Below are positions 37,175-56,328 of a DNA stretch of 64,000 nt, one piece after another. Under the pieces are notes generated by a model. It was not told where the DNA came from. It worked only from the letters and a program-made list of their open reading frames with translations, and ran no database searches. Where the stretch lies: the NCBI GenBank assembly GCA_030538255.1, contig JAUNUI010000014.1, positions 1-64,000 on the forward strand, in the 5' to 3' direction. Position numbers and translations under genes: made by a program. The stretch's first letter is position 1. The number at the start of each line of letters is the position of its first letter. The DNA is from Pelistega sp. GTDB lineage: Bacteria; Pseudomonadota; Gammaproteobacteria; Burkholderiales; Burkholderiaceae_B.

Positions 37175-37259
37175 TGGTGCCCGGGGCCGGAATCGAACCG
37201 GCACGCCTTGCGGCGGGGGATTTTGAGTCCCCTGCGTCTACCAATTTCACCACCCGGGC
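37175..37259 (-). tRNA. tRNA-Leu (anticodon CAA)
   Basis: The minus strand begins GCCCGGGTGGTGAAATTGG and has a TAGACGCAGGGGACTCAAAA anticodon arm (loop CTCAAAA, anticodon CAA), a long variable arm CCGCCGCAAGGCG, GGTTCGATTCC in the T arm and a CCGGGC acceptor with encoded CCA. The long variable arm and the acceptor pairing mark it as a class II leucine tRNA. The 3' end lies at the low-coordinate end. Confidence 0.97.
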
Positions 37260-37468: not shown

Positions 37469-38431
37469 TTACTCTTTTTTCCCATCACTCTTATACAAGC
37501 GATCTAAGAAATCCGCATATTCAGAGCAAATCTGAATCTCACTCTTCTGCGGATCGTAGAAGGCGTTCTCCTCCTCACATCGCATCACCACCACTGACAA
37601 AGGCTCAGGCAAGGAGAAGTGTTCATTCAAGGCGTTCACCTCATCTTCTAGCATCTGCGCGACAAACGAAGCCGTCTGCGATTGATTTTTCAACTCGCCT
37701 TTTTGTTTAAATGTAAATTTATTTTTTAGCGATTTATCAGTGAGTTTATCCAAGACTTCACCCCATGAACGGTCAAGCAGCTCTCGCTCTTCAATGCAGA
37801 GCTCTGCACGGTCTTCAGGTAGACCAACCGCCTCTAAGACATGGGCACGCTTATCTGGGTCACCGCCAAAGTATAGGCAGGCAATACTAAAGTGACGTTG
37901 TTGATCGGTCGAATGCTCATCCCACCAGGGGGATTGTTCTAGGGCAGTTTCACCTGCCAACCAGAATAAAGAACTCGCGTAGGAATTAATCAAGTCGGCC
38001 TCGTCTTCATCCCAGAGTTCGTCCGATAAGAGAATCGCCAATTGATCGGCCGCATCCTCTTCCTTGCCAAGTACGGGCAAGTCTAATTGATGAATCAGGG
38101 CATGCGCCATCTCATGGTAGAAAATCCATAACACATTAGCTTTAATAAAGTCTTCTCGCTCTTGTGCGGAGATAGGCTTAGCGGCCTTATTTGAAGAGTG
38201 AGTTTGTTTGAGCACCTCAGTTTTACTTGCTGGCGTATGCGTGTGCTGCAGCGGCTCAGCTTGATTATGCGTTACAGAACTGCTTGGTGTGTTGGTTTGA
38301 TTCAGCGGCTCGACTTTATTTGCTGCTTCGACTTTATTCGAAGCTTCAGATTTATTAGGGATATCAGACCACGCTGACAGAGGAAAAATTAAACTGGCAA
38401 TTAATAATGCTTTACTTAATAAGGAATACAT
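37469..38431 (-). CDS. DUF4344-type putative metallopeptidase, secreted
   Basis: A 320-residue precursor with a signal peptide (LLSKALLIASLIFPLSAWS). A low-complexity linker follows (residues about 24-88, repeats of NKxE and HTHTP words), then a domain with the zinc-protease motif HEMAH (WIFYHEMAHALIHQ) and downstream KEEDAADQLA. The latter HExxH...EExAD pattern matches DUF4344 putative metallopeptidases of unknown substrate. It is probably periplasmic. It lies between the tRNA-Leu and the orphan HigA gene. Confidence 0.8.
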   Translation of the reverse strand: MYSLLSKALLIASLIFPLSAWSDIPNKSEASNKVEAANKVEPLNQTNTPSSSVTHNQAEPLQHTHTPASKTEVLKQTHSSNKAAKPISAQEREDFIKANVLWIFYHEMAHALIHQLDLPVLGKEEDAADQLAILLSDELWDEDEADLINSYASSLFWLAGETALEQSPWWDEHSTDQQRHFSIACLYFGGDPDKRAHVLEAVGLPEDRAELCIEERELLDRSWGEVLDKLTDKSLKNKFTFKQKGELKNQSQTASFVAQMLEDEVNALNEHFSLPEPLSVVVMRCEEENAFYDPQKSEIQICSEYADFLDRLYKSDGKKE

Positions 38432-38856: not shown

Positions 38857-39450
38857 TTAGATAGCATTCTCAATAGCATTTGCAATCTTTTTGTACCACT
38901 CTGGCAAGCGTTTACTTCTGTAGCTTACTTGGCGAGACTTAATGGTAACAATTGACCGATGTTTCTTCCCACTATTATCAAATATAAACAATCTATCGGC
39001 TAAGGGCGCGATCTTGACGAAGTTATTCATTGACTGACCGTAACGTCTTAAAATTGCCTCAACTGGAACATCGTGACCGCCTACATTGACTCTTGTTTTA
39101 ACCCTAGCAAGCGACTGTAGGGAACCAGACAAACCAACATATATCAGGTTAATTTTATAGCCAAGTTCTTTTGTTTTTTTAATAAGCGTTATTTCAGAAT
39201 TGCCCGATAATGTCGTTTCAAATACAAATGTTTTTCGATTTTCAACTAGACTAGATCTTAAGGTTAACGCTTGTCTTGCCGCCTGAATTTGCAAGGCATT
39301 GTCTGTGAGATGAGGATTCTCTGACTGAATAGCAATTTTCATATTATCTGGATTGACATAGTCAATTTCTTTATCGAAAAAACGTCTATATAAGGTCGTC
39401 TTTCCAGCCCCATTGGTCCCACAGAAGACCCATAATTGAGGCTGTGTCAT
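38857..39450 (-). CDS. Zeta toxin family P-loop kinase
   Basis: A 197-residue P-loop protein with Walker A GTNGAGKTTLYRRFF (residues about 11-25), YVNPDN, FVFETTLSG and RVKTRVNVGGHDVPVEAILRRY, the hallmarks of zeta-like kinases; family members phosphorylate UDP-N-acetylglucosamine in the epsilon-zeta toxin system. The ATG overlaps the stop of the 81-residue upstream gene (TAATG), which argues for a two-gene toxin-antitoxin unit, although that partner is not a recognisable epsilon. Confidence 0.85.
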   Translation of the reverse strand: MTQPQLWVFCGTNGAGKTTLYRRFFDKEIDYVNPDNMKIAIQSENPHLTDNALQIQAARQALTLRSSLVENRKTFVFETTLSGNSEITLIKKTKELGYKINLIYVGLSGSLQSLARVKTRVNVGGHDVPVEAILRRYGQSMNNFVKIAPLADRLFIFDNSGKKHRSIVTIKSRQVSYRSKRLPEWYKKIANAIENAI

Positions 39451-44909: not shown

Positions 44910-45764
44910 TTACCGCTCAAAAACACTTAACTTTCTTTTACTCAATTCAAAAAATTGCGTATCAATTTCACTACCACAAAATTTACGCTGAAGATTAAGC
45001 GCTGCAACTCCAGTTGAGGCACTCCCCATAAAAGGATCAAATATTAGGTCGCCCTCATTACTTGCCGCCAAGATACACCTTTCTATTAAAGCCAAGGGTT
45101 TTTGCGTGGGATGTTTGCCAAATAGCTTTTCAATAGCTTTAGGAGGAGCGATAGTCCAAACACATTTCATTTGCTCACCACCATTTAACCCACACATCTG
45201 CTGATAATTAAACGTATGTTTAGCGCTTTTACTCTTTTTGGCCCAAAGCAAAGTCTCAAATGAATGCGTGAAATAACGACAAGATAAATTGGGAGGAGGA
45301 TCTGGCTTCTCCCATGTAATATTATTTAAGATGTAATAGCCAAGTTTTTGAAGCGTATACCCCACCATATAAATATTATGCTGTGAGCCACAGACCCATA
45401 TAGTTCCGTTGGGCTTGAGGAGACTGTAACTCAATTTCAACCAACGCTCATAGAATTCTAGATCTGCGTGAAAGCCTTCCGATTTATCCCACTCACCTTT
45501 GTTAACAGAGGCAATCTTGCCACTTTTACAAGTAATCCCATTATTCGATAAAAAATATGGTGGGTCAGCAAAAATCATATCAAAACAACCGTTGGGATGC
45601 TTTTCTAGGATCATCTCCATAAGAGAAAAAGAATCTGCGTTATAAATCATGAAGTTATTCGACAAATACTTTTTTAAAACCTGCATTCTTTTTTGCTTCC
45701 ATTTAGGCAAATAAGTAGTTGGCACTTTGTTAAAATTACTATCACCATTAATTTGTAAATGCAT
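44910..45764 (-). CDS. DpnA-like (M2) adenine DNA methyltransferase of a GATC-type system
   Basis: A SAM-dependent N6-adenine methyltransferase, about 284 residues (ATG 45764; GTG 45770 possible). Catalytic motif IV DPPYFLSNNGITCKSGK and SAM motif I FDPFMGSASTG occur in the order catalytic-then-SAM, as in the beta class. SVNKGEWDKSEGFHADLEFYERW and NITWEKPDPPPNLSCRYFTHSFE closely resemble DpnA/MboIC of DpnII-type systems, which methylate GATC, including single-stranded DNA. It diverges from the DpnM-like gene. Confidence 0.85.
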   Translation of the reverse strand: MHLQINGDSNFNKVPTTYLPKWKQKRMQVLKKYLSNNFMIYNADSFSLMEMILEKHPNGCFDMIFADPPYFLSNNGITCKSGKIASVNKGEWDKSEGFHADLEFYERWLKLSYSLLKPNGTIWVCGSQHNIYMVGYTLQKLGYYILNNITWEKPDPPPNLSCRYFTHSFETLLWAKKSKSAKHTFNYQQMCGLNGGEQMKCVWTIAPPKAIEKLFGKHPTQKPLALIERCILAASNEGDLIFDPFMGSASTGVAALNLQRKFCGSEIDTQFFELSKRKLSVFER

Positions 45765-45996
45765 CAACACTTTGCTGCGTTATTTCTTCCCAAAGGCTAT
45801 ACTCACAGATACTAATTTATGGCTATAGTCTATAGTTTAGTCTTCGCCACCTACTTATCACCTTGCTCACTTAAAAGTTATCATGTGAAATCCCTACCCA
45901 AAACAATTATATCAGCGGGATATTAGCAACAATTTCATTTGTGACAAAAAAAGCCAGGTATTAAATCTATATTTTAAAAATTGTGTCATCCTTAAA

Positions 45997-46836
45997 ATGA
46001 GTAGAAAAAACAATCTAGTCACTCCTGTCCTTAAATGGGTTGGAGGCAAACGCCAATTACTAGCAGAATTAACTCCTTTGCTTCCCAAAAGCATTACCAA
46101 ATACTGCGAACCGTTTGTCGGAGGTGGAGCTCTTCTTTTCAATTTACAACCAAGAACAGCATATATTAATGACATTAATGAAGAGTTGATTCGTGTCTAT
46201 AGAATAATTAAAGATGATGTTGAATCCCTCATTGCACAGCTAAAAGAGCACAAAAATGATGCTGATTATTTCTATCAGGTAAGAGATTGGGATAGAGACA
46301 AAGAAAAATATTTATCGCTTTCGGAAGTAGAGAAAGCTGCGCGTATTATTTATTTGAATAAAACTTGTTATAACGGCCTTTTTAGGGTAAATAGTGCTGG
46401 AGAGTTTAATACTCCTTTTGGACATTATCGGAATCCTAATATTGTCAATGAACCAACACTTCGTGCTGTAAGTCTGTATTTTCAAAGCACCAATATTCAA
46501 TTAAGCTCATTAGATTATGCAGAGGTACTTCAAGGTCTTCCAAAAGGAACTTTTGTCTATCTTGACCCACCATACGATCCTATTTCTGATACATCTAGTT
46601 TCACAGGTTATTCAAAAGGTGGTTTTTCTCGTGAAAATCAAATTCGTCTGCGCGAATGCTGTGATGAACTAGACAAAAGAGGCTTAAAGTTTATGCTTTC
46701 GAATTCTGCGACTGATTTTATTAAAGAGCAGTATGATTCGTATAACATAAAAACTGTACAAGCCAAAAGGATTGTCAACTCAGATGCAACGAAACGCGGT
46801 GAAGTTAATGAGGTTGTAATAAGAAACTATGAGTGA
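45997..46836 (+). CDS. Dam/DpnM-family DNA adenine methyltransferase
   Basis: A D12-class N6-adenine methyltransferase of 279 residues. N-terminal TPVLKWVGGKRQLLAEL and FVGGGALLF form the SAM pocket; DPPYDP (GTFVYLDPPYDPIS) is the catalytic motif; NKTCYNGLFRVNSAGEFNTPFG is the recognition-proximal block. Dam and DpnM recognise GATC, EcoRV methylase GATATC. The pairing with a DpnA-like methylase favours GATC. Its end overlaps the next gene by 8 bp. Confidence 0.88.
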   Translation: MSRKNNLVTPVLKWVGGKRQLLAELTPLLPKSITKYCEPFVGGGALLFNLQPRTAYINDINEELIRVYRIIKDDVESLIAQLKEHKNDADYFYQVRDWDRDKEKYLSLSEVEKAARIIYLNKTCYNGLFRVNSAGEFNTPFGHYRNPNIVNEPTLRAVSLYFQSTNIQLSSLDYAEVLQGLPKGTFVYLDPPYDPISDTSSFTGYSKGGFSRENQIRLRECCDELDKRGLKFMLSNSATDFIKEQYDSYNIKTVQAKRIVNSDATKRGEVNEVVIRNYE

Positions 46837-48124
46837 GAAAAAAAGTTTAAACCAAATAGCTTGGGAAGAAATCTTTAAAACGCATGACGTACTAAACAAA
46901 ATAAGTACCGATGGCGAGTTTATAATTAACGCCAGCGAAATCAAACGATTTAGAGAGCCTAGATTAATGAGCAAATTTGACAATGAAATCAATTTGCCCA
47001 AAATTTTCAAAGATCACAAGCTCGCAATCTTGCCAATATCCAGAAGTAGTTACATAATTTCACACTTCGAGGCATACCATAAATTTGAAGCTCCTGATGA
47101 TAGTAATATTGCTACGATCAACTTTCCGATTCCAGATCATATACAAAGTTTAGATTTCGCAAACATCACAAGTGAAGCAATTGCTTTAAATTGTGCTTTA
47201 GCTGCTGGCATAATTACAGATTTCGTTGGTGACATGCCCTTAATACCGACAGTTTCTGGACGCATGAGTTCAAAATCTTTTGACTTCAACATTAATAACA
47301 CATACAAAAATACACCTCACTCAGTGAGTGTCAATAATTCACAAATTGAAATTGATGCAGCCTATGAATGCCCCCACTGTTTAGCAATTTTTGAAGCTAA
47401 ACGTGATATATCAACAGACCTTTTAATCAGGCAACTGTACTACCCCTACAGACTTTGGAAAAACACAATTAGCAAACCTGTTAAACCATTTTTTCTAACA
47501 TATTCAAATGGCATTTTTCGTTTATATGAGTTTGCTTTTGAGGATATCAATAACTACAACTCACTAATTTTAATAAAACAGAAAAAATACTCTGTTGAAA
47601 ATACAATTATTGAACTCAATGACATTGAAGATGTGTTAAGACGAACTGCTCTTGTAAAGGAACAAAGCATACCGTTTCCTCAAGCTAATAGTTTTGAGCG
47701 TGTTATTAACCTCTGTGAGTTGTTAAATGATAAAGAGTTAAATCATGACGATATAACCGTAGAATATGCATTTGATTCTCGCCAAACAGATTACTATACA
47801 AATGCCGCAAAATATTTAGGCCTACTCGAAAGAGTTAATGATACACCAGAAACACCATACAATCTTACTGACTTAGGCAAAAGAATTCTTAGCTTAAGCT
47901 ATAAACAACGTCAATTAGCTTTTTGCTCTCAAATTCTATCCCACAAGGCATTTAATGAAGTCCTAAAGCTCCATTTAGAAATAAGTAGGATGCCTTCAAC
48001 GGCAATGATAGTCAAAATTATGAAGAAAGCTAATTTACATAATATACACAGCGATAACACTTATGAAAGAAGATCCTCAACCATCAAGAGTTGGGTAAAC
48101 TGGATCCTCAGTTTAATTTCTTAA
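46829..48124 (+). CDS. Probable type II restriction endonuclease
   Basis: A 431-residue protein overlapping the methylase gene by 8 bp, so co-translated. IEIDAAYECPHCLAIFEAKRDIS (residues about 170-195) fits a PD-(D/E)xK nuclease core (Asp174-like acid and EAK). The C-terminal 150 residues look like a winged-helix domain (YTNAAKYLGLLERVND; YNLTDLGKRILSLS). This layout is seen in restriction enzymes accompanying Dam-type methylases. It is much longer than DpnII or MboI endonuclease (about 280). Specificity is inferred only from the neighbours. Confidence 0.7.
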   Translation: MSEKKSLNQIAWEEIFKTHDVLNKISTDGEFIINASEIKRFREPRLMSKFDNEINLPKIFKDHKLAILPISRSSYIISHFEAYHKFEAPDDSNIATINFPIPDHIQSLDFANITSEAIALNCALAAGIITDFVGDMPLIPTVSGRMSSKSFDFNINNTYKNTPHSVSVNNSQIEIDAAYECPHCLAIFEAKRDISTDLLIRQLYYPYRLWKNTISKPVKPFFLTYSNGIFRLYEFAFEDINNYNSLILIKQKKYSVENTIIELNDIEDVLRRTALVKEQSIPFPQANSFERVINLCELLNDKELNHDDITVEYAFDSRQTDYYTNAAKYLGLLERVNDTPETPYNLTDLGKRILSLSYKQRQLAFCSQILSHKAFNEVLKLHLEISRMPSTAMIVKIMKKANLHNIHSDNTYERRSSTIKSWVNWILSLIS

Positions 48125-48255
48125 AAAAATTACGGAAATTCATAAGCATATACTTATTGATACGCCATAACTGGAAAATCACATAAAGTTATCTATTTTC
48201 ACTCTATTAGTAATACATATTTTTGAATCTCCATCTAAACATTAGCTAACTCGCT

Positions 48256-48468
48256 CTATAAACCCTCTTCTTTTTCATGCGATACAAAAAAATCAGATAA
48301 GCGAATCCCAAATGCTTGGCAGATTTTCATAAGCATCTTTACTGTTGGATCGCACTCATTACGCTCAAGCCGCCCATAATATTTTTCATTGATGTCCGCC
48401 TTTTCTGCCAATAAACTCTGAGTCAAACCATTTTTTTCTCTATAAAACTTAAGTGTGTTTCCAAGCAT
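48256..48468 (-). CDS. XRE-family transcriptional regulator
   Basis: A 70-residue single-domain repressor: NTLKFYREKNGLTQSLLAEK then a helix pair ending GRLERNECDPTVKMLMKI. Size and layout resemble controller (C) proteins of restriction-modification systems and small phage repressors. It begins 9 bp from a perfect 16-bp palindrome and faces away from the AIPR-like gene, so it probably represses its own promoter and that gene's. Confidence 0.85.
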   Translation of the reverse strand: MLGNTLKFYREKNGLTQSLLAEKADINEKYYGRLERNECDPTVKMLMKICQAFGIRLSDFFVSHEKEEGL

Positions 48469-48476
48469 GGTTGATT

Positions 48477-48492
48477 ACCGCATATATGCGGT
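48477..48492. promoter_or_regulatory. 16-bp palindromic operator
   Basis: ACCGCATATATGCGGT is a perfect palindrome in the 89-bp gap between the divergent XRE regulator and the AIPR-like gene, 9 bp from the XRE start. It is the likely operator of the regulator. Confidence 0.75.
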
Positions 48493-48557
48493 TTTAAAAA
48501 AAACAATGATACCTCATAATAACATCACATTAACCATTAAACCAAGAGGTGGTAATT

Positions 48558-49727
48558 ATGAAATTCGAATTTCCAATTAATACTTTTCGTATGCTCCCTA
48601 ATCCTTACGGAGAATATACCGAAAGAAACTCAAATCCTGTTGTCTATGAGTGCTATGTAGAAGTACAAGATATACCTGACAACTTCCCCATGGAAACCAA
48701 TCCTAGGGAGCAAAATTTAAAAACAAACGTAGCCAAAAATATCGAGGAAAGCCTCAAGTCATATGAAGAAAATTTTCATATAAAAAACAGAGGCATTATC
48801 CTTTCTGCTGCTAGCTTCGCCTTTAACTCCAAAACGAGTCACGCAACAATCTTTATGACTGACACCGAAGTTCATGGTAATGTCGATGGCGGTCACACAT
48901 ACAAAATTATTCTAGCTAATCGCAATGAACTTCAAGATAAACAATATGTACGCTTGGAGGTAATTATTGGAGCAGAAGACTTTTTTCAAGATCTAGCTAA
49001 AGCAAGAAACACATCAGTTCAAGTCAAAGACACTTCCATAGCTGAGCTTGAAAAAAAATTTGAATTTATAAAAGATGCTATTGGACCCTTAGCAAACGAA
49101 ATTGCATTTAAAGAAAATGATATAGACAAAAGGATTAGTATCGATAACATTATCTCCATTTTAAGTACATTTAATTTAAATACTTACTCAGACGCAGACA
49201 AACAGCCCATTAGTGCTTATAGCCAGAAAAGTTTTTGCGTTAAGCAGTTTTTGGCATATGATGAAAATGATATTCATAATCCTTTTCACAAAATGGTCCC
49301 CATCATTCCTTCGATTCTAAAGTTACATGATTATATTGAAAAGAAGTTACCCGAAAAATACAAAGAAGTTGAGCCAGGGGGGAAATATGGCCTAATTAAA
49401 GGCATTCAATCCAAAAAAGAAAACAGCAAAGTAAAATTTCAGACTGATATTTACGGCGATGATATTGAATACAAAAGTCCGAGATCTTTTGTTTTGCCAA
49501 TTCTTGCTTCTTTCAGGGCATTAATCAGAGAAAATGAAGAAGGTTACTATGAATGGATCGACAGTCCATTTAAGCTCTTTGATAAAGTTGGCGGACAAAT
49601 GGCAAAAAACACTAAAGAGCGATCAAAATCTTTAGGATATAATGTTAACGCTTTAGGTAAAGATGCAGGACATTGGCGAGACCTATTTCAAATAGTGCTT
49701 ATCGAAAAGCTAATGAAAAACGCATAA
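48558..49727 (+). CDS. AIPR-like (abortive infection phage resistance) protein
   Basis: ATG 48558 with a GAGGTGG Shine-Dalgarno gives 389 residues. FHIKNRGIILSAASFAF and EVHGNVDGGHTYKIIL correspond to the conserved NxGI and NGxQT-type motifs of AIPR proteins, whose mode of action is still unclear in general. Family members occur beside restriction-modification genes and in phage-exclusion loci. No membrane helix. It is expressed from the regulated divergent promoter and faces the long inverted repeat at its 3' end. Confidence 0.7.
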   Translation: MKFEFPINTFRMLPNPYGEYTERNSNPVVYECYVEVQDIPDNFPMETNPREQNLKTNVAKNIEESLKSYEENFHIKNRGIILSAASFAFNSKTSHATIFMTDTEVHGNVDGGHTYKIILANRNELQDKQYVRLEVIIGAEDFFQDLAKARNTSVQVKDTSIAELEKKFEFIKDAIGPLANEIAFKENDIDKRISIDNIISILSTFNLNTYSDADKQPISAYSQKSFCVKQFLAYDENDIHNPFHKMVPIIPSILKLHDYIEKKLPEKYKEVEPGGKYGLIKGIQSKKENSKVKFQTDIYGDDIEYKSPRSFVLPILASFRALIRENEEGYYEWIDSPFKLFDKVGGQMAKNTKERSKSLGYNVNALGKDAGHWRDLFQIVLIEKLMKNA

Positions 49728-49936: not shown

Positions 49937-51337
49937 TTAATCCACCAAATTTCTTAATATTCCAAAATCTTTCTGGATATCATTATTATCTTTAAATGAA
50001 CGTAAAGTAGAGTTTAAATAACTGTTGGCTAACTTTTCTATTCCCTTCACTTCACTGAGTTTAGTTGTTAAATACCCAAGGGGCAAAGTAACTGGATAAC
50101 CACTTAACTTTATGTGATAACACACCACCGCAAATTTATTTTTTAAAAAAAGAATTTCAGTATTGCCGTCTAAAAAACCTTCGCAAAAACCAAATAATAT
50201 ATCATCCTGAATATCTTTGAATTGATATCTCCATCCATCTATTTCATGCTTAGTTCTTTTTTTAGATAAAGGTAAATAAAGACGAAGTTTATAACCTTTT
50301 GATTGCTGCTCTACCAGGCTTTGAACTTTATCATGGATTTTTTTTTGTTTACCCCAATAAATATCATTGGGCACGAGCCAGAGTAACTTCCGGTCGGGAT
50401 TCACTGCATTTTTGTCTAAGTCATTTAAAATCGTATTAATTTTTTCAAATACATCCTCTTGATGATATATTTGACCTAAAAAACACATACCACTTTGTTG
50501 CTCTCGTTTATGTTTCTCGTTTAAAAACTCTAGAAAATCTAACTTTCCTCCAAATAATATCTTCCTTAAGAAATTACATCCCAATGCTTCCATACTTTTG
50601 CTAAGTTCGTGTAAATTATCGGCGCTCCTAAATTGTGCAAGTAGCTCAGTAACCGCTTTCTGAATATTATCTTGAAAAAGCAAATTCACTATATCATGCC
50701 GTTCTTTCGATTCCCCTGTTGCGGGGAATAATTCAAATTTTTGAGTAAAACGAAAATAAACAGGGGACCCTTTAGTTTCAATAACATCAATCTTATATAA
50801 AGCAGTATCCTTTGCATCTAATTGAATAATATCATCTTCACATAATTGTCGAAATCGGGATTGAAACACTTTTCGAGCAGTTTCATTGCACTCAGATTGA
50901 ACGCGTGATTCAACTGGAACTTTAATCGCGTGCTGACTCTCTGAATCACAATCCTTTTTTAGCAAAAAATTGTTATCTAACAACTCCATACGATACTCAC
51001 CGCCGTATTCATTTAATGAAGGAATTTTCGGTGAATCATCGTTACTACCGTGAAACAATTTCATCCCCTCAGATGAAATCTCGACCGTTCCATCGTCCGT
51101 CCATAATATCCATTTGTTTCGTGCTAAGTCCTCTAATGAAACTTCAGTCTCATAATGATTAAAACCAAAATAGTGTGCAATCTGTTCTGGTTTACAAGGA
51201 GTCAAATATAATAATCGCAATAAATACTCACGAACAAACGCCACATTTTTGTCGCTCATGCAAGAAAAAACAATACGAAAACGCGGAGCTAAAATAACGA
51301 AATCTATTTGATTATAGGGAGTTTCATACACATTCAT
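49937..51337 (-). CDS. Partner of the NERD-kinase-helicase; possible degenerate PLD-fold effector
   Basis: A 466-residue protein of no clear family. Its ATG overlaps the upstream gene's stop (TAATG), so the two are translated together. Residues about 40-95 (PEQIAHYFGFNHYETEVSLEDLARNKWI) look like a winged helix. Residues 315-425 alternate strands and helices (RKLLWLVPND; KGYKLRLYLPL; TEILFLKNKFAVVCYHIKL) in the manner of a phospholipase D half with an HxK (His408, Lys410), but the expected Asp and GSxN are not found. A PLD-like effector is therefore only a hypothesis. Base composition is AT-rich like the fusion gene. Confidence 0.6.
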   Translation of the reverse strand: MNVYETPYNQIDFVILAPRFRIVFSCMSDKNVAFVREYLLRLLYLTPCKPEQIAHYFGFNHYETEVSLEDLARNKWILWTDDGTVEISSEGMKLFHGSNDDSPKIPSLNEYGGEYRMELLDNNFLLKKDCDSESQHAIKVPVESRVQSECNETARKVFQSRFRQLCEDDIIQLDAKDTALYKIDVIETKGSPVYFRFTQKFELFPATGESKERHDIVNLLFQDNIQKAVTELLAQFRSADNLHELSKSMEALGCNFLRKILFGGKLDFLEFLNEKHKREQQSGMCFLGQIYHQEDVFEKINTILNDLDKNAVNPDRKLLWLVPNDIYWGKQKKIHDKVQSLVEQQSKGYKLRLYLPLSKKRTKHEIDGWRYQFKDIQDDILFGFCEGFLDGNTEILFLKNKFAVVCYHIKLSGYPVTLPLGYLTTKLSEVKGIEKLANSYLNSTLRSFKDNNDIQKDFGILRNLVD

Positions 51338-54300
51338 TAATTCATTCCTTTTTGGCGCATTGTCTTCAATGCATACTTATGATCACCTAAACGCTGTTGA
51401 ATAAATTTCAACACCCTACCTAAGGGCATTTTGCTATTTTGAGGTTGCTCCCAGACTGTTGCCGCACCAACAATAATTAATTTATCCATTGCACGCGACA
51501 AAGCCACATTGATACGGTTTGGCAGATATAAAAAACCTGTGCTGAACTCTTTATCATGACGAGATAACGACAGAATAATTATTCTATTTTCTTTGCCCTG
51601 ATAGCTATCCACACTGTCAATTTTTACCAAACGACGAAATGCATCATCCCATGTTTTTTCATTAAATTTTTTTCGGATCAATTTTTTCTGTTCTGCATAC
51701 ATACAAATTACACCAATGGCTGGTGTATTAGATTGCAGGCAGCGTTGCACCATTTCACTAGTCATAATGGTTTCATCATTTGCCAAATCTTGCAATAGCT
51801 CCAGAATAACATCAGCTTCAGCCCGATTAAAAAAGCTATTTTTATTCTGTATATGATAAGAATTAGATAATTTTGTCGTATCCAACCATGTCACACTACT
51901 TTTAAAATTATCAGGTAGTCCTGAATATATATCAGGAACATCACTCTCTGTTTTGCCATTCTCCAATACACCGTCATAAAAACATGTTGAAATCAAACTA
52001 CCAATAGCAGGAGCCATGCGATACTGTACTTTTAGTGTTGCACAGGTCTGTTTTCCATATTCTGATTGAAAAACTCTTTCAAAATCACTGCCTAATGCCT
52101 GATCTAATTCATCTCCTCGTTTAGAAATACCTAAGCGACGAGCCAAGGCATTTTTATGCTCCGTTGAATATAATGGCGGTAATTGTTTTTGATCCCCTAC
52201 CAACAAAATACGCTTACCTGATTGCATTGCAATAGCTAATTCGCTGGAGATAGATCGAGCGGCTTCATCAACAATTACCCAGTCATAGATATTATCTGCA
52301 ATACCAATATGCTTTTGCCCGATACCCACGCAAGTTCCCACTACTAGCTGGCGAGAACGAGCCAGAAACTCATCGTAATTTGTACGGTTATTAGACAAAG
52401 CCTCCAACATATCCCTCGTTAAATCAATTAGCTTTCCTGCCTGTAAACTTTCAGCTGGTTGGATATTATACTTATGGTCAAGTTTAGCAACTAGCTTTAG
52501 TGAAATTTGACCAACCTCTAATACCTCAACATTAGTTAAGCCTAATTGCTCTGCTCGATTCCTAATAACCTTCTCTATCGACTTGACTAAACGTTTTTCG
52601 TCTTCATCGATTTGCGAACCAATGGGAGGGCTTTTTACCAACTTTAAATATCGTCGAATCTGAACACCAATATCAAATTGCATTTTTGCTCGTTCACGCA
52701 AATACTCTTCAGGCAATCCCATTGCTCTGCCTAATTGGCAAATATTTATAATTTTATTCACTGCTAGCTGTTGACGCTTTTGCCCAACCAAATTTTGTGA
52801 GAAAACGTCCTCTAACTCTTCCGAGTCTGCTATTTCACGGTTACTAAATCGTACAATTTGTAAATTAGTACCTAAACGCATACTATGCTTACGAACTCTT
52901 TCTGCTGCGGTATTCACAGCCTCGTGAGATTGACTAACAAGTAAAATACTATTTACATTTTGTTGGTCAAACAAATAATGTACAAAAGCAGCAATAAACT
53001 CAGTTTTCCCTGTTCCAGGAGGGCCTTGCAGTAAAGAAAGAGGGCCATTTGATATTAAAACTTGAAAAGCCTGACGTTGCGCTTCATTCAAGCTTATAGT
53101 TTCACCGTGCAAGCCAATCCTATCATAACGTGCAAATTGCTCATCGCTCACAAAAATCCCATAATTATTAGGAGCCTGAGTACAATCTTCATCAAAGTAT
53201 TGAACTAAGTTTTTAATTACACTTTCATTATCTAAAATACGTTGTAGCGCACTTTTTCTCCGTTGATAAGAAGCTTTATTTTGTATACTTTGCAAATAAA
53301 TAGGTGTATCAAATTCAATTTTCTCACTAGAATAATTCAGTTTTCTAGATTTTAAATGTAATTCATTTAAACAACTTTTAATCAGATCTACAGTGCCATA
53401 TTTGAAAGTTTTTTCATTCTTATCGTCAAAACCAAGCGCCTCAACAATTTCATCTCTATTAAATTGGTCTAGTGGGTCAATATCACCATCATAAGGAATA
53501 TAAATCTCACCTGTTTCCAGCTTTTGTAGTCCAGCACTTGCGGTAATTGCAGGTAAAGCTTCTGTTTCTGTATTCAAAATAGCTTCCCACAAATCTTTAG
53601 TTTTAGGACGTTGCAACATAATTTCTACTTCATCAGAAATTAGTACCGCCCCAACCCCAAACCCAGTATTGGATTCAATTTTACCAAGCGTTTTTGGTTC
53701 TGGATGCTTAAAAATATGTTCACGGATGAACCCATTAATTGCTTGTTTAAACAATTTGTTTTCGGATAGCTTTTCATTTAATTTATCAAAGCCACTTGCA
53801 AAATGATATGAAACTTTCAGACTTATAGCTAAACTTAGTTCACTATTATCCTTGTCAAGCTTAGTAATATAATCGCGTTCAATTGGAGTTTGCGCATAGG
53901 TAAATTTGTTCTCACGTACTGAATACAATACTTTTAAGATACCGCCCAAACCAATAAAACTCACTAAAACATTGTCTGATGTACCTCTTTCAAACTTAAC
54001 AAATAACTCATCATTTTCAGGATAAATCTCTATTGGATTAAATGTATTTCTTCCACCAATCAAAACCTCAATTGAAGGTATTATCTGCTTAGGATTCAAA
54101 GCCTCTTTAAAACGATCTAGAGAAATAAAATTGCTTTGTAAATCTTGATTTTCAAGCTGTATTACATCACTAATATCGCTGAACTTCTCTGACGGCATAT
54201 TCCAAGTGATATTTAAGAGCTCACACGCCATTTTCATTACGGCAAAATTATCACACTGCATCTCTGTCGCATTATCAAAAGCAGGAGCGTATTCAGTATT

Positions 54301-56328
54301 AAATTGTTTTTTCCCATTTATTGAAAAATCAAAAATATCCAAGAGATACAATCTAAATTCATCGTTATACATTGTAACTAGAATATTATCTGGCTTTAAA
54401 TCACCATGTGTAAATCCCAATCCATGCAAATGCTCAATATTGTGTAACAGCATATTAATAAGAGCAATCTTTTTTTCATCGGTTAAACCATCTAATTCTG
54501 CAACTTGTGACCAAGTGTAGCCATTCTCAATAAAATCACTTACTATAAACAAACTGCTCGATTTTCGAGCGATACCAAAACTACGAATTTTAGGCAAATA
54601 ATCTGGTGATAATTGCGCTAATTTTGCGATGCTTCCCAGCCAATTAAAGACAATGCGCGCCTCATGCCTATCTTTATGTGGATCTGCCCTAAGCCATGCT
54701 TTAACTAAGGCACCATTAGAGAGGTAAACTTCTTTTTCAGCTGTTTCTTTAATAAATCCATCATCTTCGCGATAAGCACGTGAATGACTTATATCGTGAT
54801 AGAATGGTTCCAATTTAGAAAATTCAAATGAAAAATCTAATGTTTGCTCAGGCTTTTTCTGGTTAAATCTCTCCAAAAATTCCTGTGCATTTTGAAAAGG
54901 TTTATCTGATAGTGCTGTACGTAATATATTTACATACCACTCTGTATTTACTTCTAAATTGCTTTGCATTTTTTGCAAACTATCTGGCGACACTCTCTCT
55001 GCATGAATAATATGCCATATTAAAACTGCTAACGTACGGACATCTGACTGGTATACTGTTAAATTTACTCTATCTGACAGTGGAAAATTAATTTTTGCTA
55101 AATCCCCTGATACTGCCAAAATATCACGAACATCACCAACAGTTTGTTCTGATGAAAGATAAGCGGTAGCAAATCCTGACAGCATAATTTTATCGTCTAC
55201 CGACAACCAAATGCTATGTTCTCCTAAATCACGATGAGCAATGTTAATTTGGTGCAGTTGCACAAACTTATCCAGTAATAATTTAACCAAATCAAATCGG
55301 CGTTCAATGTTCAAATTCTGAACACTGTGCCCGCCAACAAATTGATTAAAGCGTTTTTGTTGAGGGAACAACTCAAAGATGTCAATATGCTCAGCTGTTA
55401 CTTCTCCTTTTTGTGGTGTATTTTTATACTTTAAACATGTATGATACAACTCTGCATTATGTAATTTTATGTATTGTAAAATATCGTACTCTCGACTGAT
55501 TAGCCGAAAACGCCCATCAGGTGTTTGCACTTCAGGTCGTTGAATTTTAGTGAAATCCCAACGACGTAGCAAGGCAACATCTCGATGTTTCTTATATTCT
55601 GATTGAGCAAAATACTCACGATAAATATTGTTAGGATGCTCAAAGATAGGGGCATCTTCTGCGTAATAACCACCTATACTGATTGATTTAGGCTTAACTG
55701 TGTCAATACCGAAAATTTTCTTATCAAATATTTCAAAATCTTGATTTAATGACTTACTATTTGGGTGCGGACGAAAACGTTGATTAAATCTATGCTCTTC
55801 TTTTAATTCTAAAAAATCGGATAAATTTAATACATACAGTTTTTCATTTTCATCTAACTCACTAAAATCTGCATTGCCCGTCATGACAACCAAAAAATGA
55901 ACCTGAGGGCGATAATTTTTATTAGTAAATTCCTGTTTAAATTTATCTAGTTTCTTTTCCAGTAAGTATTGTTTACTCCTTGTAATGGATACTGGCGAGC
56001 GACCTCTGTCCTGACCATTTAAACTCCACCTATCCTTAGATGATTTAATTATTCCTCCATTCCAATGCTTTAGCTCCACAATCAAAACATTACAATGGGT
56101 GATAATTACTAAGTCAAATTCGCCATCCTTGCGTTCTCGCACATCAGATAAGCGAAAACCAGAATATCCTCTCCATGGAAAGATAGATTTTAAAGACTTT
56201 AATGCACTTAATCCATCTCCTTTTACTATTTTTTGTTCTGAATTAGAACTTGAAAATGCCTGTTTGATTTTTTCAATGGCATCTAACTCATGCAATGTTA
56301 ATCCACCACCCCAGTCAATAACTTCCAT
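51337..56328 (-). CDS. NERD nuclease - pseudokinase - kinase - SF1 helicase fusion
   Basis: A 1663-residue multidomain protein. Residues 8-190: NERD nuclease-like domain with Asp72 and Glu85-Leu-Lys87. Residues about 250-490: kinase-like domain with HRDLGEHS (365-372) and SGF in place of DFG, so probably inactive. Residues about 525-700: second kinase with Lys543, HGDLKPDN (641-648) and LLDIFDF. Residues 1060-1640: Upf1/COG1112-type SF1 helicase with Walker A GPPGTGKTE (1102-1110), VDEA (1353), GDQKQLPP (1378), QYRM, DSYQGKENR and RINVALSRA. Related parts occur in PglW (NERD plus kinase) and Mokosh (kinase plus helicase). Likely anti-phage; mechanism unknown. Confidence 0.88.
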   Translation of the reverse strand: MEVIDWGGGLTLHELDAIEKIKQAFSSSNSEQKIVKGDGLSALKSLKSIFPWRGYSGFRLSDVRERKDGEFDLVIITHCNVLIVELKHWNGGIIKSSKDRWSLNGQDRGRSPVSITRSKQYLLEKKLDKFKQEFTNKNYRPQVHFLVVMTGNADFSELDENEKLYVLNLSDFLELKEEHRFNQRFRPHPNSKSLNQDFEIFDKKIFGIDTVKPKSISIGGYYAEDAPIFEHPNNIYREYFAQSEYKKHRDVALLRRWDFTKIQRPEVQTPDGRFRLISREYDILQYIKLHNAELYHTCLKYKNTPQKGEVTAEHIDIFELFPQQKRFNQFVGGHSVQNLNIERRFDLVKLLLDKFVQLHQINIAHRDLGEHSIWLSVDDKIMLSGFATAYLSSEQTVGDVRDILAVSGDLAKINFPLSDRVNLTVYQSDVRTLAVLIWHIIHAERVSPDSLQKMQSNLEVNTEWYVNILRTALSDKPFQNAQEFLERFNQKKPEQTLDFSFEFSKLEPFYHDISHSRAYREDDGFIKETAEKEVYLSNGALVKAWLRADPHKDRHEARIVFNWLGSIAKLAQLSPDYLPKIRSFGIARKSSSLFIVSDFIENGYTWSQVAELDGLTDEKKIALINMLLHNIEHLHGLGFTHGDLKPDNILVTMYNDEFRLYLLDIFDFSINGKKQFNTEYAPAFDNATEMQCDNFAVMKMACELLNITWNMPSEKFSDISDVIQLENQDLQSNFISLDRFKEALNPKQIIPSIEVLIGGRNTFNPIEIYPENDELFVKFERGTSDNVLVSFIGLGGILKVLYSVRENKFTYAQTPIERDYITKLDKDNSELSLAISLKVSYHFASGFDKLNEKLSENKLFKQAINGFIREHIFKHPEPKTLGKIESNTGFGVGAVLISDEVEIMLQRPKTKDLWEAILNTETEALPAITASAGLQKLETGEIYIPYDGDIDPLDQFNRDEIVEALGFDDKNEKTFKYGTVDLIKSCLNELHLKSRKLNYSSEKIEFDTPIYLQSIQNKASYQRRKSALQRILDNESVIKNLVQYFDEDCTQAPNNYGIFVSDEQFARYDRIGLHGETISLNEAQRQAFQVLISNGPLSLLQGPPGTGKTEFIAAFVHYLFDQQNVNSILLVSQSHEAVNTAAERVRKHSMRLGTNLQIVRFSNREIADSEELEDVFSQNLVGQKRQQLAVNKIINICQLGRAMGLPEEYLRERAKMQFDIGVQIRRYLKLVKSPPIGSQIDEDEKRLVKSIEKVIRNRAEQLGLTNVEVLEVGQISLKLVAKLDHKYNIQPAESLQAGKLIDLTRDMLEALSNNRTNYDEFLARSRQLVVGTCVGIGQKHIGIADNIYDWVIVDEAARSISSELAIAMQSGKRILLVGDQKQLPPLYSTEHKNALARRLGISKRGDELDQALGSDFERVFQSEYGKQTCATLKVQYRMAPAIGSLISTCFYDGVLENGKTESDVPDIYSGLPDNFKSSVTWLDTTKLSNSYHIQNKNSFFNRAEADVILELLQDLANDETIMTSEMVQRCLQSNTPAIGVICMYAEQKKLIRKKFNEKTWDDAFRRLVKIDSVDSYQGKENRIIILSLSRHDKEFSTGFLYLPNRINVALSRAMDKLIIVGAATVWEQPQNSKMPLGRVLKFIQQRLGDHKYALKTMRQKGMN

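Follow-up and report, generated by a model that had tools for sequence, protein, structure and literature searches.

The 64,000-nucleotide stretch of Pelistega sp. DNA analyzed here (positions 1 to 64,000 of contig JAUNUI010000014.1, assembly GCA_030538255.1; hereafter the window) carries a two-gene locus, mkoA-mkoB, which by its sequence is almost certainly a Mokosh type I defence system in a long, NERD-bearing build. The first gene encodes a protein in which a nuclease-like NERD domain, a predicted pseudokinase, a second kinase fold, and a superfamily 1 (SF1) helicase are fused. This protein aligned end to end with the PADLOC model PDLC03921, the longer of the two MkoA models in that database (1710.7 bits, residues 1-1657 to profile positions 1-1600 of 1607), and the product of the adjoining gene, which lies on the same strand and has one base in common with the end of mkoA, matched the MkoB model PDLC03923 (274.2 bits, residues 6-461 to profile positions 8-451 of 454). 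Because both proteins gave full-length matches and all aligned relatives matched the same models (17/17 for MkoA and 16/16 for MkoB, window included), the pair is assigned to Mokosh type I as already modeled. The features by which this type is recognized, a full-length MkoA match, an adjacent MkoB, and a NERD domain, were all found, whereas the PLD-like domain that is also listed for Mokosh type I was absent from the window's MkoB and from 15 relatives in a Pfam search at E 1. A scan with NCBIfam gave no model at or above its cut-off.

The initial annotation of this DNA had described the open reading frame at 51337-56328, which is real and whose strand (minus) it had not stated, as a four-part fusion that might be a divergent Mokosh subtype or a separate anti-phage system; the opposite (plus) strand of this interval contains many stops throughout. 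Its lead to Mokosh was right, as the full-length matches to both PADLOC models indicate, but the proposed novelty did not survive. A high-scoring full-length match to a named defence component, which the annotation itself had set against its proposal, was found in PDLC03921, and the neighbor matches the paired MkoB model, which rules out a new fusion or a new system; the four-part fusion is already known, and the window holds an ordinary copy of a named family. The "non-obvious partner" of the annotation does exist as a gene but can be identified by PADLOC as MkoB, and the kinase plus COG1112 helicase order that had been given as the MkoA arrangement applies to a shorter build of the system, described below, and not to the long build seen here. 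By itself, therefore, the locus is one more copy of a named defence system, and its interest rests on the comparison between the two builds.

Table. Positions of the mkoA-mkoB pair, its domains, and the neighboring defence genes in the window
Feature	Positions	Strand	Description and basis
mkoA	51337..56328	minus	1663 aa, NERD - pseudokinase - kinase - SF1 helicase; open reading frame and PADLOC MkoA model
NERD nuclease-like domain	55729..56328	minus	approximately residues 1-200; putative PD-(D/E)xK set E14, D72, E85, K87
First kinase fold, predicted pseudokinase	54829..55686	minus	approximately residues 215-500; alignment and profile-profile match
Second kinase fold, predicted active	54169..54801	minus	approximately residues 510-720; K543, HGD641-643, N648, D664
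Linker	53149..54168	minus	approximately residues 721-1060; no Pfam-A match at E 0.01
Upf1-like (COG1112-type) SF1 helicase	51379..53148	minus	approximately residues 1061-1650; AAA_11/AAA_12, PDB NAM7/UPF1
mkoB	49937..51337	minus	466 aa; PADLOC MkoB PDLC03923
MkoB N-terminal winged-helix-like part	50816..51328	minus	approximately residues 4-174; common to HKD/PLD-bearing partners elsewhere
MkoB C-terminal part	49940..50815	minus	approximately residues 175-466; no family, no HKD motif
Neighboring defence genes	44910..49727		N6_N4 methylase (minus), D12 adenine methylase (plus), type II restriction enzyme (plus), AIPR protein (plus)

Conservation was read from an alignment of 18 MkoA sequences, the window's included, one of which (L030) ends early near its contig end; model matches were counted in 17 aligned sequences, again including the window, with L030 left out, and NERD was matched by 17/17 and Pfam Pkinase by 16/17. 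In the window's MkoA, Pfam recognized three of the four parts that the initial annotation had named, each above its cut-off, namely NERD (PF08378, residues 43-149, 45.4 bits, the cut-off being 22.1), Pkinase (residues 581-669), and AAA_11 with AAA_12 (residues 1080-1623), and the fourth, the pseudokinase, is recognized by its motifs and by matches to PglW models. Asp72, Glu85, and Lys87 of the NERD domain are where they had been placed, and Glu14 looks like part of the same residue set; E14, D72, and K87 are kept in 18/18 sequences and residue 85 is Glu in 15 and Asp in three, hence acidic in all 18, so that the site is, as judged from its residues, an intact PD-(D/E)xK-like set. The kinase motifs that had been pointed out are likewise present, HRDLGEHS (residues 365-372) and SGF (residues 384-386) in the first kinase and HGDLKPDN (residues 641-648) in the second. 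In the first kinase, the position of the beta-3 Lys is R255 in all 18 sequences, H365 and D367 are invariant, and position 384, that of the DFG Asp, is Ser in 16/18 and Thr in 2/18. Pfam kinase models gave no match over this fold at E 0.01; PglW models reach it (residues 39-380 and 49-380), and its profile-profile comparison with the second kinase gave a probability of 95.7, so a conserved pseudokinase is predicted. In the second kinase, K543 and D664 are found in 18/18 sequences and D643 and N648 in 16/18. The helicase was found to be complete and Upf1-like, as had been claimed, with Walker A at residues 1102-1109, DEAA at 1354-1357, QYRM at 1435-1438, VDSYQGKE at 1573-1580, and R1612, and with NAM7 and UPF1 as its top solved relatives in a PDB search, followed by DNA2 and Sen1; the Walker A lysine, given earlier as Lys1109, is K1108. 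These motifs are constant in 17/18 sequences, the exception being L030. As the relatives span RNA (UPF1, Sen1) and DNA (DNA2) enzymes, the fold does not decide between an RNA and a DNA substrate. Because the NERD and pseudokinase residues are constant in 18 sequences and the helicase motifs in 17, the parts of MkoA are not a chance association. In two relatives, L026 (2960-8008) and L031 (2683-7917), the catalytic loop of the second kinase is degenerate and the NERD and helicase motifs are intact.

MkoB offers less to recognize. No Pfam family was found in the window's MkoB, a PDB sequence search reached no better than E 0.39 with the MkoB profile and E 1 with MkoB alone, and the HKD pattern occurs in 0/16 long-build MkoB proteins, the window's included. 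Its N-terminal part is related by hhalign to the short-build MkoB set described below (probability 85, E 6e-6) and to the L038-type partners (probability 95, E 2e-8), and weak winged helix-turn-helix (wHTH) matches in Pfam were given by a minority of the long MkoB proteins (5/16 at best). Over the whole protein, the long MkoB aligned nearly end to end with two actinobacterial PLD partners (probability 94.8, E 5.5e-8). A decayed PLD domain in the C-terminal part was considered and gained no support: compared with four PLD sets, residues 285-450 scored 12.0, 13.1, 16.5, and 9.4, within the control range for three of them, as column-shuffled controls (25 shuffles) reached up to 18.5, 16.8, and 14.5 for sets 1, 2, and 4, and set 3 (16.5) had no control. 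Because the three C-terminal scores that had controls did not beat them, only an N-terminal kinship of the MkoB types is supported, with no similarity demonstrable between long and short MkoB beyond that part.

PADLOC holds a second, shorter pair of models under the same names, MkoA PDLC03920 and MkoB PDLC03922, and ten pairs of this build (L149-L158) were compared with the window, two from genomes and eight from plasmids, chosen by hand from the matches and hence a non-random sample. Like the window's MkoA, the short MkoA places a COG1112-type helicase after a kinase fold, and the winged-helix N-terminus of its partner is related. On the other hand, it has one kinase fold, in which the catalytic Asp and the DFG Asp are present in 0/10 each (read from the alignment), and no NERD in the two proteins scanned with Pfam, of which one scored 32.1 bits for Pkinase (cut-off 31.7) and the other 16.7. 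HRS, HRN, HRA, HRK, or HGR stands for HRD, and S/T/G-GF for DFG, and this single kinase looks catalytically dead; in profile comparisons it resembles the long build's second kinase (probability 98, E 3e-13) more closely than the first kinase of that build (probability 92, E 7e-7). Two HKD motifs are found in 8/10 of the short-build MkoB proteins; L149 has a single motif and L155 lacks it, the L155 protein being a short one of 356 aa encoded beside an IS3 transposase. The long build, by contrast, combines an MkoA whose NERD site is intact by its residues, and whose second kinase is in most cases intact too, with an MkoB lacking the HKD motif. Because HKD motifs lie in the short MkoB and NERD in the long MkoA, the recognizable nuclease sits in different subunits, and each build would have one such nuclease, in opposite subunits. 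NERD (PF08378) appears under Mokosh type I in the review table of PMC10952713, which gives a PLD-like domain for types I and II, type II being that of MkoC; from our comparison, the PLD-like domain seems to mark the short build rather than Mokosh type I as PADLOC uses the name.

We tentatively suggest, with some reservation, that Mokosh type I comprises two mechanistically different machines on a common helicase and winged-helix core, one with an HKD/PLD nuclease in MkoB and a dead kinase in MkoA, and the other with a NERD nuclease in MkoA that a pseudokinase/kinase switch controls, and with MkoB as a non-catalytic adaptor. The two builds predict different essential sites, HKD in MkoB for the short one and, for the long one, the NERD residues E85/K87 of MkoA, perhaps along with its kinase residue D643, and the split raises the question of whether results from one Mokosh build carry over to the other. 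No account of it was found in the literature searched, which did not cover the discovery paper (Millman et al. 2022), and the search on Mokosh returned no paper with Mokosh in its title; given the separate PADLOC models, the split may be known to annotators already. Other COG1112-type helicases were seen at L038, L040, L049, L062, L079, L093, L095, and L107, each followed by a protein with one or two HKD motifs and a match to the short-MkoB profile; the hosts of these helicase and PLD pairs include actinobacteria, Bacteroidota, and archaea, a wider range than that of the Mokosh examples.

As to how the long build may work, the likeliest of the mechanisms considered, which we propose with less than even confidence, is a helicase-triggered nuclease in which NERD would be the cutter. 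The Upf1-like helicase of MkoA, together with the winged-helix MkoB, would engage nucleic acid arising in phage infection and thus form the sensing or loading part; ATP hydrolysis and the pseudokinase/kinase pair, the former presumably controlling the latter, would act as the switch; and the NERD domain would then, as the effector nuclease, cut nucleic acid. Taken as one statement, identity and proposed mechanism together, this account is in our view probable. An RNA-decay mechanism, by analogy with RNA-silencing helicases, seems unlikely by comparison: the helicase would unwind phage transcripts and viral RNA would be degraded, with NERD or MkoB as an RNase. It would agree with the RNA helicases NAM7 and UPF1 being the top solved relatives and with a statement in PMC11291487 that Mokosh degrades foreign viral transcripts. 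However, the helicase also matched DNA2 and SMUBP-2, so that RNA versus DNA is not decided by the fold; PMC12839542 and PMC10853773 treat NERD in PglW and DndF as restriction-endonuclease-type and DNA-targeting; and a 2026 review (PMC12926258) still classes Mokosh, in one row together with other systems, as of unknown mechanism.

Another possibility, which we regard as quite improbable, is that the second kinase is itself the effector and phosphorylates host or phage proteins so that growth stops, as proposed for PglW/DndF-type kinases, with NERD and the helicase only sensing. The initial annotation had named NERD plus kinase as known from PglW, and the same module is indeed described in PMC12839542 and PMC10853773, which give NERD, an inactive kinase, and an active kinase for PglW and some DndF proteins; the window's MkoA has these three parts in the same order, with K543 and D664 invariant and D643 in 16/18. 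Against such a role, the catalytic loop is broken in 2/18 sequences, and neither the catalytic nor the DFG Asp is present in any of the 10 short-build examples, so phosphotransfer is not generally required of MkoA. PglW differs further in that, according to the same sources, it continues as wHTH modules and an inactive STAND ATPase and has no SF1 helicase. Membership in PglW/BREX was rejected on a partial match (86.3 bits, with residues 39-380 out of 1663 as the best stretch, and 77.1 against a cut-off of 990); PglX, PglZ, and BrxC were not among the matches listed for six island proteins (lists giving the best 25 of 68 and the best 25 of 38), the other open reading frames of the window being judged by eye. 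The MADS kinase MAD6 resembles the NERD-kinase part of MkoA (residues 58-488, 102.8 bits, below the 460-bit equivalog cut-off), and its model, at 612 positions, is too short to take in the window's helicase as well. MkoC of Mokosh type II, a single-gene arrangement, is similar in the helicase region (108.4 bits); type II was rejected, as there was no full-length MkoC match (best stretch 1346-1638) and the window has two genes.

The helicases of the two builds were compared in three unrooted trees, from all of which L027 and L030 were dropped. In a tree of 67 rows, with 3 of the 10 short rows, the long and short builds and five other rows, whose partners match the short-MkoB profile, fall on one side of a branch with support 97/96. 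In a tree of 52 rows with three short rows, the short build and those five are split from the long build and all others (100/99), the long build standing in an open fork, and a tree of 46 rows with all ten short rows again places these apart from the long build and the others (100/99), the long build lying between the two. A motif filter had removed seven short rows from the 67-row and 52-row trees, and L047 was also removed from the latter; the other helicases were limited to 45 in the 67-row tree and thinned by hand in the 52-row and 46-row trees, the last being without L095, L107, and L093 and the long rows L023, L029, L033, and L037. The long and the short helicases each make up a separate group with good support, and whether the two groups are sisters is not settled by the trees. 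This, along with MkoB C-terminal halves that lack demonstrated similarity, might be taken to mean that the long build is a separate anti-phage system only distantly like short-build Mokosh, which we consider very improbable: the long build has its own PADLOC MkoA and MkoB models named Mokosh, which refutes the naming claim, and NERD is listed under Mokosh type I in PMC10952713.

Several points weigh against the two-build reading and the proposed mechanism, and leave the identity of the pair untouched. The lack of a settled sister relation is one; another is that the short-build sample was hand-picked, which limits the two-build comparison and the mechanism. NERD is matched with a modest score, and MkoA residues 1-265, when searched against PDB sequences, gave one match (E 0.45), mostly outside the NERD core. 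The catalytic Asp of the second kinase is lost in 2/18 sequences, and because these two Acinetobacter relatives, L026 and L031, are without it, phosphotransfer may not be needed by every MkoA. The C-terminal half of MkoB, for which the PLD test came out without support, might hide an unrecognized enzyme. Finally, PMC11291487 says that Mokosh degrades viral transcripts; if so, RNA would be the target.

The distribution of the pair is sporadic, with many copies on plasmids. In plasmids, a tblastn search with MkoA gave 196 records at E 1e-20, 145 of them with at least 80% cover, and with MkoB 143 of 149 records reached that cover. Among the plasmid copies found, that of Moraxella osloensis is the closest (64% identity in MkoA and 58% in MkoB). 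MkoB was found in three phage records, one Pseudomonas phage locus having both genes, and a scan of viral contigs with the MkoA alignment confirmed 0 relatives among 204 candidate stretches. When the pair of L027, an E. coli plasmid, served as the query (its MkoA shares 44% identity with that of the window), matches came from 332 of 5426 complete E. coli genomes, 309 of them over at least 80%, and 335/337 places were chromosomal. Of 369 genomes in the class to which the window belongs, 17 matched the MkoB model, at full length only in the window's own genome, the other 16 with short N-terminal stretches; in the family, MkoA was found at E 1e-60 in 5/250 genomes, the own one included, three others having the full pair and one a fragment; and in the genus MkoB occurs in 1/7 genomes, the own one. 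MkoB adjoins and overlaps MkoA in 8/8 annotated relatives (seven plasmids and one phage, hand-picked, six through MkoA and two through MkoB, so that the latter two have MkoB by choice), follows it in 8/9 full or near-full relatives from genome contigs, the ninth stopping at the contig end, and in 3/4 other family-survey matches, the fourth being the fragment. Mobile-element, phage, or defence genes flank all eight annotated relatives, as read by eye from the annotation. That MkoA is a housekeeping helicase outside defence is hardly credible and was rejected: its helicase core is common to many COG1112-type proteins, and 71/80 kept loci are not long-build MkoA, but the occurrence is sporadic at family and genus level, plasmid copies are many, and the window's copy lies in a low-G+C island with restriction-modification and AIPR genes. 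A 717-aa NERD-kinase-kinase open reading frame at L138 (7002-9155), close to an IS66 transposase gene and lacking an MkoB match, is probably an MkoA remnant. In the same genus, L126 (6429-12164) encodes a different, 1104-aa COG1112 helicase, the helicase half of which matches the MkoA models, in a cluster with a 472-aa protein that has a weak, sub-cut-off wHTH match; it is possibly another uncharacterized locus of a Mokosh-like kind.

The defence island proposed in the initial annotation was borne out by the surroundings of mkoAB. A type II restriction-modification cluster (44910-48124), the restriction enzyme of which has the composition DUF6996-DUF6997-DUF7226, and an AIPR protein (48549-49727) lie beside the pair, and the G+C content in 1-kb windows is 33-39% over 45-57 kb against 46-50% over 57-62 kb. 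The low-G+C stretch with mkoAB was probably acquired horizontally. Searched in seven genomes of the genus, the own one included, the flanking proteins were present in 2/7 (one a 24% match) and in 1/7. One more low-G+C window lies outside the island, at 36 kb (36%). Elsewhere in the window, a Zeta-toxin-like open reading frame of 197 aa (38857-39450) stands beside a putative DUF4344 metallopeptidase (37469-38431), near a tRNA-Leu gene (37175-37259).

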